DNA from: Subtercola sp.
GTDB taxonomy: Bacteria; Actinomycetota; Actinomycetes; Actinomycetales; Microbacteriaceae
Direction of reading: 5' to 3'
Assembly: GCA_025463745.1 (NCBI GenBank)
Contig: JAODBB010000217.1
Coordinates: 20,790 to 84,789, forward strand
Length of the DNA stretch: 64,000 bases
Positions 58,125-63,612 of this stretch are shown here, piece by piece (position 1 is the first letter of the stretch; every line of letters begins with the position of its first letter). Position numbers and translations under genes: made by a program. A model generated the notes under the pieces. That model did no database searches and was not told the origin of the DNA. It was given only the letters and a program-made list of their open reading frames with translations.

Positions 58125-58751
58125 TCACGTGCGGGGCCACACGCCGGAGCTGCCGCGGCGATGGCTGTCGATTAAGTGGGTGTCGATGATGCCGATCGCT
58201 TCCATCAGCGCGAACATCGTTGTGGGTCCGACGAAGGAGAATCCCTGGGCCCGCAGCGCTTTGGACAGGGCCACCGACTCGTGCGAGACGGTGGGGATCT
58301 CGCCGAAGTCTCGAGGCTCGGGCGTCGTCTCGGGTTGGTGTGACCAGACGAACTCGACCAGTCCGCCTTGGTCGCGGAGCGCGATAGTGGCACTCGCGTT
58401 CGTGATTGCAGCGAGAATCTTCGCCCGGTTGCGCACGATGCCCGTATCTGCCAAGAGTCGTTCAACGTCCGTGTCGGTATAGCCGGCGACGATATCCGGG
58501 TCGAAGTGATGGAATGCTGTGCGGAACGCAGGGCGTTTACGGAGGATCGTCGCCCATGACAGGCCGGCCTGGAATGCTTCCAGGCTGATCCGTTCGTAGA
58601 GCCCGTGTTCGTCACGGACGGGCATGCCCCATTCTTGGTCGTAATAGTCCCGCAGGAGATCGTCGGTGGCAGCCCACGCGGGGCGGGCGAGCCCGTCGGG
58701 GCCGATGACGGCTCCGAGAGCAGCTTCCGTGGAGGGTTCAGGGTTCGGCAT
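58125..58751 (-). CDS. tag: DNA-3-methyladenine glycosylase I
   Basis: ARPAWAATDDLLRDYYDQEWGMPVRDEHGLYERISLEAFQAGLSWATILRKR. Confidence 0.93.
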   Translation of the reverse strand: MPNPEPSTEAALGAVIGPDGLARPAWAATDDLLRDYYDQEWGMPVRDEHGLYERISLEAFQAGLSWATILRKRPAFRTAFHHFDPDIVAGYTDTDVERLLADTGIVRNRAKILAAITNASATIALRDQGGLVEFVWSHQPETTPEPRDFGEIPTVSHESVALSKALRAQGFSFVGPTTMFALMEAIGIIDTHLIDSHRRGSSGVWPRT

Positions 58752-58752
58752 T

Positions 58753-59421
58753 TCAGCTCATTCCTGTGACGCGCATGGTGATGTTGATCCGGCCTCGATC
58801 CAGGCCGCTTTCGGCGGGTGCTGTGCCGGGATAGACCTTGGTGATCCCGTGGTAGGCGAGCCGAGAAGGCCCGCCGAAGACGAACAGGTCTCCAGATGCC
58901 AGATCGATGTTCTCGTAGGGCTGGTTGCGGTTTTCGGTGTTCCCGAACCTGAACTGGCAGGTGTCCCCGATCGAAAGCGACACGACGGGGGCGAGCGATA
59001 TCTCGTCTTTGTCTTGGTGCATGCCCATTCGGGCGATGTCGTCGTAGTAGTTCACCAGTGCCGTGTCGGGGGTGTAGTCGTCGCCTGCGTGCGGGTCGCC
59101 GGTCGCAGCGACGAGCGCTTTGCGGCCGAGGCTGACCATCCAGCCGGGGAAGTCGAGAACCCGGCTGCCGTTCACGTCGGTGGCGCGGCGGGTGTATTTG
59201 TAGGGCTGCCAATGCCACCCGAGGCATACGGTGCGCACCGACATTTCGTGGCCGCGGACTTTCGCCGCGCGCAGCGGCACGGGGCCTTGTACCCACTGCC
59301 GGAATTGGTCGACGATCCAGCTCTGTTGTTCGATGGTGAGCCATCCTGGCACCAGGTGCGCGCCGGGTGTGAGCTCGCGGCTCGGACGATCGAGGAAGTC
59401 GTCGCTGAAGAGGGTGCTCAT
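58753..59421 (-). CDS. alkB: AlkB-like alpha-ketoglutarate-dependent DNA dioxygenase
   Basis: ALVNYYDDIARMGMHQDKDE...VSLSIGDTCQFRFGN...DLFVFGGPSRLAYHGITKV. Confidence 0.93.
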   Translation of the reverse strand: MSTLFSDDFLDRPSRELTPGAHLVPGWLTIEQQSWIVDQFRQWVQGPVPLRAAKVRGHEMSVRTVCLGWHWQPYKYTRRATDVNGSRVLDFPGWMVSLGRKALVAATGDPHAGDDYTPDTALVNYYDDIARMGMHQDKDEISLAPVVSLSIGDTCQFRFGNTENRNQPYENIDLASGDLFVFGGPSRLAYHGITKVYPGTAPAESGLDRGRINITMRVTGMS

Positions 59422-59951
59422 ACGTCACGCTCCGGGTGGATCTGGGCGAGTTCGGCGCCATCGATGCGCCAAGTGCCGCCATTGGCCGTCGCCCCCGTCA
59501 GGCCATCGAGGTGTTGGATACCCGCCAGTCGATGCAGGGTGGGCGCGGCAGCGGAGGCGAATCCGATCGTGGAGGCAGCGGCCCAGTTCGTGGACCAGAT
59601 GAGTCGGCGGATCATTTGAGCCAGCCCCGCCGGCGCCCCGCCGAGGACGTACAAGTCCGGGTAGAACCTGACAAGATTTCGCGCTTCACGCATCCATGAG
59701 GCGGCGGCGTCCGGCCACTCGATGGAGTCGAAAACGAAACCTCCCTGGTTTCTCCATGCGGTCGCGAAAGCTTTTGCGGCGGCCGCGGAATGCGGGTCAT
59801 CGCTGTGCCCGATCGTGACTGTTTCGGCACCGCGGGCCAGGGCGAGGCGGACCATCTGGTCGATCTCCTCTGCCGCGTGTGGCTTGGGCTGGGTGTGGGC
59901 ACCCACCACGGCGGCGACGCGGGCGTCGTCGAGGCGGGGAGAGAGCGTCAT
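59418..59951 (-). CDS. Hypothetical Rossmann-like protein in alkylation-repair operon
   Basis: 177-aa ORF overlapping both neighbours; AETVTIGHSDDPHSAAAAKAFA...YVLGGAPAGLAQM. Confidence 0.75.
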   Translation of the reverse strand: MTLSPRLDDARVAAVVGAHTQPKPHAAEEIDQMVRLALARGAETVTIGHSDDPHSAAAAKAFATAWRNQGGFVFDSIEWPDAAASWMREARNLVRFYPDLYVLGGAPAGLAQMIRRLIWSTNWAAASTIGFASAAAPTLHRLAGIQHLDGLTGATANGGTWRIDGAELAQIHPERDV

Positions 59952-60244
59952 TGCGGCGCCCCTGTAGCGATCTTCCAGGCGCGATACTTTTCAGGCATAC
60001 ATGTCCCGCAGGGGCGGAATCCAGCGGCGATCGCGGTCTGTTCGTCGGCGAAGAAGGCCCTGTTCCTGACATAGCCGCGGTGGGCGATCGCGCGCCGAGC
60101 CGCGGGGCAATCGAGGCGCCCGTAAATCTTCGATCCTCGGTGTCCGCCTAGCAGTCCTGGGGTCGCCGATGCGTAGGGGCGTCGGTCGGAGCCGAGAAGC
60201 GTGTAAGTCTTCCCAGGTCCGGCGAGCTGATCAGTGTTGGTCAT
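59948..60244 (-). CDS. Stand-alone Ada metal-binding-domain-like protein
   Basis: KIYGRLDCPAARRAI...NRAFFADEQTAIAAGFRPCGTCMPEKYRAWK. Confidence 0.88.
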   Translation of the reverse strand: MTNTDQLAGPGKTYTLLGSDRRPYASATPGLLGGHRGSKIYGRLDCPAARRAIAHRGYVRNRAFFADEQTAIAAGFRPCGTCMPEKYRAWKIATGAPQ

Positions 60245-60246
60245 GT

Positions 60247-60978
60247 TCAGCCGGCTTCGTGGAAGACGAGGGCTAGCGTGTGGCGTTCGCCGGAACGGAT
60301 CGCTGACACCCCATGCCGTACCGGTGCCGCCGACCAGCCGCGTTTGGATTCAACGGGCCGGTCCCGGGTCGTGAACAGGTATCCGTGGCCGTGTGGCAGC
60401 AAGGTTGCTGTGCCGCGGGATTGGGCGCGTGGCCGCTGCTCGAGGAGCAGGAATTCACCGCCGGTGTGGTCGACGCCTGGCTCGTTCAGGTTGATGACGA
60501 CCTGCAGCGGGAACACGAGGTCGCCGTAAAGGTCACGGTGCAGTGCGTTCCAGTCTTTCTCACCGTATTTCAGCAGGATCGCGGAGGACCTAGTCTGGCC
60601 GGCCTCGTGACACATCTCCAGCCACTCGTCGAGTGTTTCCGGCCATGGTGCGACGCGTCCGAGTTTGTCGTACCAGTCCCTGGCGATCGGCAGCAGGCGC
60701 GGGTAAAGGGCTTGCTTGAGTCGTTCGATCGGCTCCGGATACGGCGTGTTGAAGTAGCGGTACTCGCCTTCGCCGAAACGGTGACGGCCCATGTTCACGG
60801 TGCTTCGGAACGCGGCGTCGTTGGAGTACATCTCCCGGATCTCGACCGTCTCCTCGGGCGTTAGCAGCTGCGGCAATAGGGCTCCGCCGTACTCGTTGAT
60901 CTCCTCGGTGATACTGTCCCAGTCGCCGGATGCGACGCGGATCTCCCAGACGTCGTTTTTCAACTGCTTGGCGCTCAT
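60247..60978 (-). CDS. 2OG-Fe(II) oxygenase (prolyl-hydroxylase-like)
   Basis: WNALHRDLYGDLVFPLQVVINLNEPGVDHTGGEFLLLEQRPRAQSRGTA...RHGVSAIRSGERHTLALVFHEA. Confidence 0.88.
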   Translation of the reverse strand: MSAKQLKNDVWEIRVASGDWDSITEEINEYGGALLPQLLTPEETVEIREMYSNDAAFRSTVNMGRHRFGEGEYRYFNTPYPEPIERLKQALYPRLLPIARDWYDKLGRVAPWPETLDEWLEMCHEAGQTRSSAILLKYGEKDWNALHRDLYGDLVFPLQVVINLNEPGVDHTGGEFLLLEQRPRAQSRGTATLLPHGHGYLFTTRDRPVESKRGWSAAPVRHGVSAIRSGERHTLALVFHEAG

Positions 60979-61601
60979 GCGGCTGCCTCCATTTCCAGTA
61001 GTGCGGTCTTAGCGGCGAGGCCACCGATGTAGCCGCCGAGGGTGCCGTCAGTTCGAAGCACACGGTGGCAGGGGACCACGATCGGCAGAGGGTTGGTGCC
61101 GCAGGCCGTGCCGACGGCGCGGACAGCGTTCGGATTACCGACGATTGTGGCGACCTGCTTGTAGCTCTGGGTCATTCCGTAGCCGATCTCGGGGAGGTGT
61201 TTCTGCACCAGCCGGCGAAACCCGGACGACAGCGACAGGTCCAGGTTCAGATCGAAGGTTTTGCGTCTGCGGTCGAAGTACTCCTCGACCTCGAAAGCGG
61301 CCGCATCCAGTCGCTTGGGTGCTTTGAGGATGCGGCGGCTGACCTTTGTGCCGAGAGTGTCGAGGACCTTGTCGAAATCTTCGCTCTCGTATGCCACGCG
61401 CAGCAGTCCTCTTTCGGTGGCTGCGAGGAGCAGTGTGCCGACCGGAGTGTCGATGGTCGTGTAGGCGATGTCCAGAATTCCGGCCTGCTGGGCTGACTCT
61501 TCAAGCCTGCGATGTAGCCGCTCCATCATCTCTGTCGAAGGCAGGGCGCTGTGAGCGAGGAGGTCGGAGATCTCCTGATCGCCGGTGGTGTCGGTGTTCA
61601 T
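60975..61601 (-). CDS. Methylated-DNA-[protein]-cysteine S-methyltransferase with N-terminal extension
   Basis: GTACGTNPLPIVVPCHRVLRTDGTLGGYIGGLAAKTALLEME. Confidence 0.93.
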   Translation of the reverse strand: MNTDTTGDQEISDLLAHSALPSTEMMERLHRRLEESAQQAGILDIAYTTIDTPVGTLLLAATERGLLRVAYESEDFDKVLDTLGTKVSRRILKAPKRLDAAAFEVEEYFDRRRKTFDLNLDLSLSSGFRRLVQKHLPEIGYGMTQSYKQVATIVGNPNAVRAVGTACGTNPLPIVVPCHRVLRTDGTLGGYIGGLAAKTALLEMEAAA

Positions 61602-62098
61602 TCTGATGCTCCTTTCGAATGTGTGCCGGCGAACGTTTTTCGCAGGCTCTTGATGCCATCAGATGCGGCCCGCCGGGCTGCATCCGTCGTCCCGCCAAGG
61701 ATTTCGGCGATTTCTAGATAGGGAAGTCCAGCGAGGTAGTGGTACGCGATGACTTGTCGCTGTTTCTGGGGAACGGTCTTCACATGGTCCCAGATCTCGG
61801 TATCCGCGGTGGCCGGGACCCCCAGTGAGGAAGGCTGATCGGGTACGACGTCGACAGGGATGGCGATGCGTTTTTGAACGCGAATGATGTCAATCGCTTT
61901 TCTGTGTGCGATCGTAACCAGCCACGCCTGAATGTTGGCGTCATCCGGTAACGTCGGATAGGCCTTCATCGCAGAGATGAACGTTTCAGACCAGGCATCG
62001 TCGGCGTCGTCGAATCCGACGACGGCTCTGCAGACGCGCAGGACCGTGGCGCCGTGCTCGGCCACGATGCTCTCGAAGGGTTTCTTAGTGTTCATCAC
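61598..62098 (-). CDS. ECF RNA polymerase sigma factor
   Basis: Region 2 VVGFDDADDAWSETFISAMKAYPTLPDDANIQAWLVTIAHRKAIDIIR; region 4 VPQKQRQVIAYHYLAGLPYLEIAEILGGTTDAARRAASDGIKSLR. Confidence 0.92.
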   Translation of the reverse strand: MMNTKKPFESIVAEHGATVLRVCRAVVGFDDADDAWSETFISAMKAYPTLPDDANIQAWLVTIAHRKAIDIIRVQKRIAIPVDVVPDQPSSLGVPATADTEIWDHVKTVPQKQRQVIAYHYLAGLPYLEIAEILGGTTDAARRAASDGIKSLRKTFAGTHSKGASE

Positions 62099-62139: not shown

Positions 62140-62673
62140 TCAAAAGAGTTTTTCCGCGTCCACGAGCTCTCTGGCGGCTCGCGATTCCTCGGTCTCTTCT
62201 AGATCCAGAAGGAACTGCTTCCGCCTGAGGCCGCCGGCATACCCGGTCAGTTTCCCGCCCTTGCCGACCGCACGGTGACACGGGACGATGATGCACAGCG
62301 GGTTCTGCCCGACTGCCTTCCCGACCTGCTGAGCCAGTGACTTGTTCCCCAGACTCTCCGCGAGGTCACCATATGTCGTCGTGGTTCCCGACGGGATCTC
62401 CTTCAACAACGCCCAGACCTGCTCCTGAAAGTGATCGCCGCGAGTCACCGTCGTCAGATTGAACGTCGTTCGTCCTTCCCGAAAATACTCACCGAGTTGA
62501 ACCGATGCGACCGCAAGCACCACATCGTCGAACGCCTCGACGCGATCACCGAAGGTATCTGCGGGCGGCATGTACCAGTGATGGGGGAAATAGAGCCCTG
62601 TCAACGCCTCACCCATCGCGACAAGCGTGATCTGCCCGAGAGGGCTCTCAATCACCGCGTGACGTGTATCCAT
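62140..62673 (-). CDS. ogt: Methylated-DNA-[protein]-cysteine S-methyltransferase (second, Ogt-like)
   Basis: MDTRHAVIESPLGQITLVAMGEALTGLYFP...NPLCIIVPCHRAVGKGGKLTGYAGGL. Confidence 0.94.
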   Translation of the reverse strand: MDTRHAVIESPLGQITLVAMGEALTGLYFPHHWYMPPADTFGDRVEAFDDVVLAVASVQLGEYFREGRTTFNLTTVTRGDHFQEQVWALLKEIPSGTTTTYGDLAESLGNKSLAQQVGKAVGQNPLCIIVPCHRAVGKGGKLTGYAGGLRRKQFLLDLEETEESRAARELVDAEKLF

Positions 62674-62880
62674 TAGTCCGTTCCTCTCTCGTAACGACGA
62701 TCTCATTCAGAAGACGCTGCGCACCAGCGAAACGTGAGGACGCGCAGTCTTGGAAGTTTGGAGGTCTTGCTCGGGCCCGAACTTCTCAGCGGCTCAGCTC
62801 ACGTCTCCGATGTGTCCGACGTCTACCAGGTAGAGATCTTTCGATCTGGCGACGAGCCACAAACCTTCAAAGGACAGCCG

Positions 62881-63612
62881 ATGCGACTCACACCCTCCAC
62901 CAAAATGGTCCGGATTGGCCGCCTCGAGATGTTCAGTGATGGCGCCTTCGCCATCATCATCACGCTCCTGGTTCTGGAGATTCATCGACCAACTGGTGAA
63001 CCCGGGCAGTTAGGCGAGGAACTGATTCGAGAGTGGCCGTCTTATCTGGCCTACGGCGTCGCCTTCGTCTACATCGGCGTTATCTGGCTGAACCATCACT
63101 ACGTCTTCAGCCTGCTCTCGCACACTGATCTGTCACTTCAGTGGATCAATTTCGGCATCGTGGGTACCAGCGCCCTCATACCGTTCCCCACAGGCGTTCT
63201 AGCCGGCGCATTCGCATCGAACAATCTCGACGATCAGAGGAGCGCGGTGCTGCTCTATTCGCTGATCGCCTTTCTCATGTCGATTTCGTGGATACCGTTG
63301 TTTCTGTACCTACGCCGCAACCCGGCCACCCTCAAGCCGACTGAAAGACCCAACCACTTCACCATCGAGATCATCCGGCCAGCAGCCGGAGCAGCCGGCT
63401 ACGTTCTGGCCGCCGCGTTGGGATGGTTCGTCGCGCCGATCGCCGCAGTTGTCATCTTCGTTCTAATAGTCATCTACTATGCCGCAACCAGCACAGGACT
63501 CAGCACCGGCATCCGCAACGATTCGGAAACCACGTCCTTGTCTGCGAACGACGGCAGTCACGAGAGTGTAGACCGTTTACCACTTTCGGTAGGAACGTCG
63601 GACCTTACGTAA
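62881..63612 (+). CDS. TMEM175/DUF1211 family potassium channel-like membrane protein
   Basis: GRLEMFSDGAFAIIITLLVLEI signature, WLNHHYVF, multiple TM helices. Confidence 0.9.
   Translation: MRLTPSTKMVRIGRLEMFSDGAFAIIITLLVLEIHRPTGEPGQLGEELIREWPSYLAYGVAFVYIGVIWLNHHYVFSLLSHTDLSLQWINFGIVGTSALIPFPTGVLAGAFASNNLDDQRSAVLLYSLIAFLMSISWIPLFLYLRRNPATLKPTERPNHFTIEIIRPAAGAAGYVLAAALGWFVAPIAAVVIFVLIVIYYAATSTGLSTGIRNDSETTSLSANDGSHESVDRLPLSVGTSDLT

Follow-up and report, generated by a model that had tools for sequence, protein, structure and literature searches.

What can a stand-alone Ada domain do within an alkylation-repair operon once the residue that defines its chemistry is gone? The zinc-bound Cys38 of Ada serves in the textbook account as both a suicidal methyl acceptor and a switch, and the protein designated AdaG here, encoded in a 64,000-nucleotide stretch of DNA (the window, to which all coordinates refer; Table 1), resembles the Ada N-terminal domain (N-Ada) with a glycine in this place. 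The reading that we favor, at a probability of about 0.45, is that AdaG is a non-suicidal, stand-alone paralogue of N-Ada, which with a Zn(Cys)3 site binds methyl phosphotriesters together with a PF09859 oxygenase and the adjacent protein P177 as its partners.

Table 1. AdaG, its zinc-site codons, and the surrounding repair genes in the window
Feature	Position	Strand	Basis and remarks
Second O6-methylguanine methyltransferase (Ogt)	62140..62706	-	Pfam; upstream of the operon
ECF sigma factor	61598..62098	-	Pfam/NCBIfam
MGMT (O6-methylguanine methyltransferase)	60975..61601	-	Pfam; PCHR intact; ~45-aa N-terminal extension; 4-bp overlap with the ECF gene
Oxygenase, PF09859 (Oxygenase-NA), 2OG-Fe(II)	60247..60978	-	Pfam, 256.9 bits; HxD intact (LHRDLYG); directly upstream of AdaG
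AdaG	59948..60244	-	98-aa Ada-like zinc domain, Gly replacing the methyl-acceptor Cys; Pfam PF02805, 83-sequence alignment, AlphaFold/N-Ada match
Gly42 codon (GGG; position of E. coli Ada Cys38)	60119..60121	-	Profile-profile alignment and codon reading
Cys46 codon (= Ada Cys42)	60107..60109	-	Alignments and codon reading
Cys79 codon (= Ada Cys69)	60008..60010	-	Alignments
Cys82 codon (= Ada Cys72)	59999..60001	-	Alignments
P177, predicted single-lobe type I periplasmic-binding-protein fold	59418..59951	-	Model and Foldseek; 4-bp overlap with AdaG
AlkB-like 2OG-Fe(II) oxygenase	58753..59421	-	Pfam, 160.9 bits
Tag, 3-methyladenine DNA glycosylase I	58125..58751	-	Pfam, 210.9 bits

The AdaG reading frame begins with ATG, and its product scores 34.6 bits (E = 1.9e-8) against the Pfam profile Ada_Zn_binding (PF02805), whose curated cut-off is 23; the N-Ada structures are its closest solved relatives by sequence. 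In a profile-profile alignment with ten canonical Ada domains (probability 95), KIYGRLDC of AdaG aligns with GIFCRPSC and AAGFRPCGTC lies opposite AAGFRPCKRC, i.e., Gly42 corresponds to Cys38, Cys46 to Cys42, Cys79 to Cys69, and Cys82 to Cys72. The Ada motifs CRPSC and PCKRC named in PMC10779285 are both present in the E. coli Ada sequence of this alignment. The window protein contains exactly three cysteines and is basic (predicted pI of 10.1). Its AlphaFold model is of moderate confidence (pLDDT of 78, pTM of 0.62), and among solved structures Foldseek matched it to the methylated N-Ada/DNA complex 1u8b, with a modest fit (E = 0.02, TM of 0.45) despite a probability of 0.99, and to 1zgw (0.98); the remaining three matches had a probability of 0.01, which leaves N-Ada as the only meaningful one and places the modeled protein in the N-Ada fold. 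AdaG thus shares with E. coli N-Ada (PF02805; 1u8b, 1zgw, and 1adn) the sequence family, the predicted fold, three of the four zinc cysteines, and the GFRPC core, but it differs in its N-terminal part and in a longer loop ahead of that core, and it lacks the acceptor Cys38, the equivalents of Arg45 and Arg71, the AraC-type HTH, and the methyltransferase domain of Ada.

The first-pass annotation had proposed the glycine and the three remaining ligands from this one protein, and both hold throughout the family. The first relatives were drawn from genomes of the same class, and a wider scan of genome contigs then detected 489, of which the best 80 loci were retained. Gly42, Cys46, Cys79, and Cys82 are each present in 83 of the 83 aligned members, all of which match the PF02805 profile at E values of up to 0.1; with Gly34, Tyr41, Tyr58, Arg62, Phe65, Ala71, and Arg77 they make up the eleven strictly invariant positions. 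All four glycine codons occur at Gly42 (GGC in 40, GGG in 20, GGA in 13, and GGT in 9), so the residue is maintained at the protein level. A cysteine elsewhere that might restore the site was looked for in the 83 members, where no further conserved cysteine column was found (Cys83 occurs in just 14). Asp45 is present in 81 of the 83. His35, in the motif GGH, was considered as a fourth ligand and rejected, since it is kept in 66 members and replaced by Tyr in 14 and Asn in 3 and hence is not obligatory. Because the contig scan had yielded the best 80 loci partly from a seed containing YGRLDC, the glycine was checked in profile searches that do not require it. The divergent members found in this way, at 58 to 132 bits, carry only glycine and also keep the three zinc cysteines (IYGTLEC in L191, IYGTLYC in L192, IFGALDC in L193, IYGLLDC in L096, and IYGRLNC in L148), and seed bias was rejected as the source of the invariance.

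AdaG is thus a recurrent family with a conserved glycine mark and not a one-off. It occurs in five or more phyla, including Actinomycetota, Bacillota, Pseudomonadota, Chloroflexota, and Bacteroidota, and is sparse in the genomes surveyed, with a high-scoring member in 4 of 247 genomes of the class and a member in 3 of 200 Burkholderiales and, down to 58 bits, in 4 of 195 Pseudomonadales, a fifth match there (L194) having been left out as a PDC-S40-like protein. A record from Sphingomonas (L021) groups with Aneurinibacillus and Heyndrickxia in the tree and for this reason looks like a Bacillota contaminant. Databases do show the family, since its genes have already been labeled as Ada metal-binding domain proteins; e.g., plasmid-borne relatives carry the NCBI name "Ada metal-binding domain-containing protein," a domain label that conveys neither the loss of the acceptor nor the role in an operon. 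Searches of the open-access literature for acceptor-less stand-alone Ada domains, for PF09859 together with Ada, and for an ECF-controlled alkylation operon returned no description, which is weak evidence of novelty.

Several known proteins come close to AdaG. The AdaA proteins of Bacillota, stand-alone or AraC-fused, have a similar zinc domain, and in some loci (L021, L054, and L066) their genes share a cluster with that of AdaG, but unlike AdaG they retain all four cysteines. The His-type Ada-like domains (L106 and L119), for which NF051437 "sunset" (NCBIfam) may be the nearest model, share with AdaG the Ada-like core and a non-cysteine acceptor position, but their VYHxPxC motif could supply a histidine as the fourth ligand where AdaG has glycine. 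PDC-S40 of PADLOC (about 210 aa) has a C-terminal AGxRPCxxC core (E of about 1e-9) with a GNRG/GGHR-like lead-in related to that of AdaG, but it is longer and has WIxC instead of YGxxxC. AdaG matches the PDC-S40 profile over positions 73 to 105 of 211 only and is not a full-length member, and L009, which is one, scores 238 bits for PDC-S40 with no Pfam match. Together with L009 to L013 and L098 to L104, PDC-S40 makes up a candidate phage-defense family with the AdaG core and three cysteines, in which the acceptor cysteine is also absent.

E. coli Ada contacts the A box of its promoters through Arg45 and Arg71 (PMC4437013). AdaG has Ala49 in place of the former (82 of 83 members) and Val, Thr, or Ala at position 81 in place of the latter, and the 98-aa protein consists of one domain only, the second DNA-binding (B-box) domain of an Ada-type activator being absent. 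With the base-reading arginine pair and the B-box part gone, a role as an Ada-like transcription regulator is, judged by sequence, unlikely.

The setting of the gene points to repair. AdaG is the fourth of seven genes, in the order ECF sigma factor, MGMT, PF09859 oxygenase, AdaG, P177, AlkB, and Tag, which from the first to the last overlap by 4 bp or sit no more than 2 bp apart and form a translationally coupled alkylation-repair operon; several actinobacterial families repeat this arrangement (L019, L039, L058, L061, L064, L070, and L085). In Bacillota, too, loci such as L054 and L066 contain repair genes near AdaG, which judged by eye are AlkA-, AdaA-, and endonuclease IV-like. Among the best 80 of the 489 loci, a PF09859 gene lies immediately upstream of AdaG in 48, a same-strand repair gene within 3.5 kb in 60, an ECF gene within 3.5 kb in 28 (some contigs being short), and ECF, MGMT, and PF09859 genes together in 25. 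The last figure and the shared operon would fit a sensor or co-regulator of the ECF sigma factor, as which AdaG had initially been suggested to act. This proposal does not fare well, because ECF genes are found at a minority of the loci and are missing from those of Bacillota and Proteobacteria, where AdaG has quite different neighbors or lies away from repair genes, and because the lost arginines argue against Ada-box binding. The MGMT, adjacent to and overlapping the ECF gene, is moreover the more natural candidate regulator, and we regard an ECF-related role of AdaG as highly improbable.

The ECF/MGMT pair itself (60975 to 62098), with its 4-bp overlap, is arranged as sigma and anti-sigma factor pairs typically are, and the MGMT, which has about 45 additional aa at its N terminus, may be a candidate methylation-sensing anti-sigma factor. 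A scan of the operon for sigma-70-type promoters gave zero sites, but such a scan tells nothing where an ECF sigma factor may drive transcription. Divergent from the operon lies a TMEM175-like potassium channel gene (62734 to 63612; 90.7 bits). Some AdaG loci have no repair neighbor or stand beside restriction genes, so that AdaG may also act outside alkylation repair: on the Psychrobacillus plasmid pPB01 (L134) it is found near genes for a BglII-like restriction enzyme, dcm, and HNH, and in Bacillus sp. MRMR6 (L068) HNH_2 and a weak SRA-like gene adjoin it, a hint that restriction islands form a second context.

P177, the downstream neighbor, is by its high-confidence model (pLDDT of 91; Foldseek probability of 1.00 to LivK-like proteins) one lobe of a type I periplasmic-binding-protein fold. 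It has no obvious signal peptide and looks cytoplasmic, with many invariant Trp, Arg, and Asp residues. Its score for Pfam Peripla_BP_6 is below the cut-off, and a sequence search of the PDB returned chance matches only, the periplasmic-binding-protein match coming from the fold search. P177 adjoins AdaG in 21 loci, the two are fused in four Nonomuraea (L069, L080, L082, and L084), and among the 247 genomes of the class P177 was not seen without AdaG, the sole carrier there being the genome of the window. In L090 the P177 frame continues into the C-terminal end of AlkB, an apparent in-frame deletion of most of AlkB.

The invariant glycine and three cysteines, the lost arginine pair, the linkage to repair genes in several phyla, and the match to the N-Ada fold support AdaG as a repair effector. 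As such, AdaG would be a paralogue of the Ada N-terminal domain that turned to repair instead of regulation. It would keep the N-Ada fold with zinc on three cysteines, and the obligatory glycine in place of the sacrificial Cys38 would leave an open zinc position over the DNA-facing site. The protein would then most likely bind methyl phosphotriesters in alkylated DNA without itself taking up a methyl group, and hence without being consumed, and would act jointly with the PF09859 oxygenase and P177 of the same operon. For AdaG, we infer the zinc binding, the DNA binding, the nature of the lesion, and the physical partnership.

Two forms of this repair-effector reading differ in what happens at the lesion. 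In the first, AdaG would be a catalytic phosphotriester demethylase, in which a free thiol, bound as a thiolate at the vacant zinc position, accepts the methyl group and then dissociates, allowing the protein to turn over. Three invariant cysteines beside an invariant residue without a side chain are what an open-site zinc needs, and the lack of any drift of the glycine to Ala, Ser, or other residues favors a site that requires space, although glycine may also persist for backbone reasons. Homocysteine methyltransferases activate an outside thiol on three-cysteine zinc sites and provide a possible precedent by analogy. He, Wei, and Verdine are said to have made the sacrificial N-Ada catalytic (JACS, 2003), reportedly by removal of Cys38 and addition of a small thiol, and if so the AdaG family may be the natural counterpart. 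On the other hand, residues that bind the thiol were not identified, and the main low-molecular-weight thiols differ among the carrier phyla. Overall, this catalytic form is unlikely, and the full proposition of a natural Cys38-to-Gly N-Ada, kept across several phyla and using a free thiol on an open Zn(Cys)3 site for the catalytic repair of methyl phosphotriesters, is a shade more doubtful still. It nevertheless qualifies the initial verdict that the protein cannot be a phosphotriester methyltransferase. With glycine for the acceptor throughout the subfamily and three ligands instead of four, AdaG is not a canonical suicidal methyl acceptor, and to this extent the verdict stands, but in principle an external thiol could serve at a vacant Zn(Cys)3 site.

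The second form, a lesion flag that binds methyl phosphotriesters, performs no chemistry, and recruits repair proteins, would parallel the alkyltransferase-like (ATL) proteins, which have lost the acceptor and retained the fold. The proteobacterial loci bear on it. The gene directly upstream of AdaG encodes a PF09859-like paralogue there that has lost the iron-ligand Asp of the HxD motif (LHQR, LHQC, or LHQS versus LHQDLYG; L029, L038, L040, L050, L051, L057, L074, L089, and L092), often with an intact paralogue nearby, and to judge from its motif it is probably a dead oxygenase kept beside AdaG. Such a partner fits a binding-only module, but the partner oxygenase is intact in Actinobacteria, and a nucleotide-excision gene linked to AdaG was not seen. 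A flag of this kind is a tentative possibility, on balance doubtful.

The next gene further upstream in Proteobacteria usually encodes an Ada that has Ser, Ser, and Ala for Cys42, Cys69, and Cys72 and mostly keeps Cys38, a set reciprocal to the cysteines of AdaG. From this reciprocity a shared site was considered, in which the two proteins build one zinc site in trans. All eight such neighbors (L029, L038, L040, L050, L071, L074, L092, and L132) have the Ser/Ser/Ala replacement in an N-domain that is otherwise highly conserved (84% mean column identity). In the two orders Burkholderiales and Pseudomonadales, AdaG is present in 3 of 5 genomes with a zinc-less Ada versus 7 of 395 overall (hypergeometric p = 3e-5, with kinship ignored and ten weaker Ada matches left out of the zinc-less count). 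However, two of the eight have Arg or Gly at the Cys38 position as well, the Ada gene beside AdaG in L051 has its whole N-domain deleted, two Pseudomonadales genomes (G959 and G818) have a zinc-less Ada without AdaG, and no such Ada is found near the actinobacterial loci, all of which makes a split site extremely improbable. By the first three of these observations an obligate pairing of AdaG with zinc-less Ada was rejected, and so was an obligate pairing with canonical Ada, since G212, G428, and G514 carry AdaG with no second Ada-domain match.

The reciprocal decay in Proteobacteria, with a zinc-less Ada, an Asp-less oxygenase paralogue, and AdaG side by side, is an unexpected pattern in itself. 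With three cysteines kept, the glycine fixed, and the promoter-reading arginines dropped, the AdaG family separates repair from signaling, and it makes testable whether methyl phosphotriesters are repaired with turnover or merely flagged. The same holds for the functions that P177 and the PF09859 oxygenases, so far little studied, have beside it. If the catalytic form were true, AdaG would be a multiple-turnover enzyme for phosphotriester repair, as opposed to the known suicidal activity of Ada. The glycine, invariant in the relatives examined, points to a non-suicidal form of Ada that is widespread within alkylation-repair operons.
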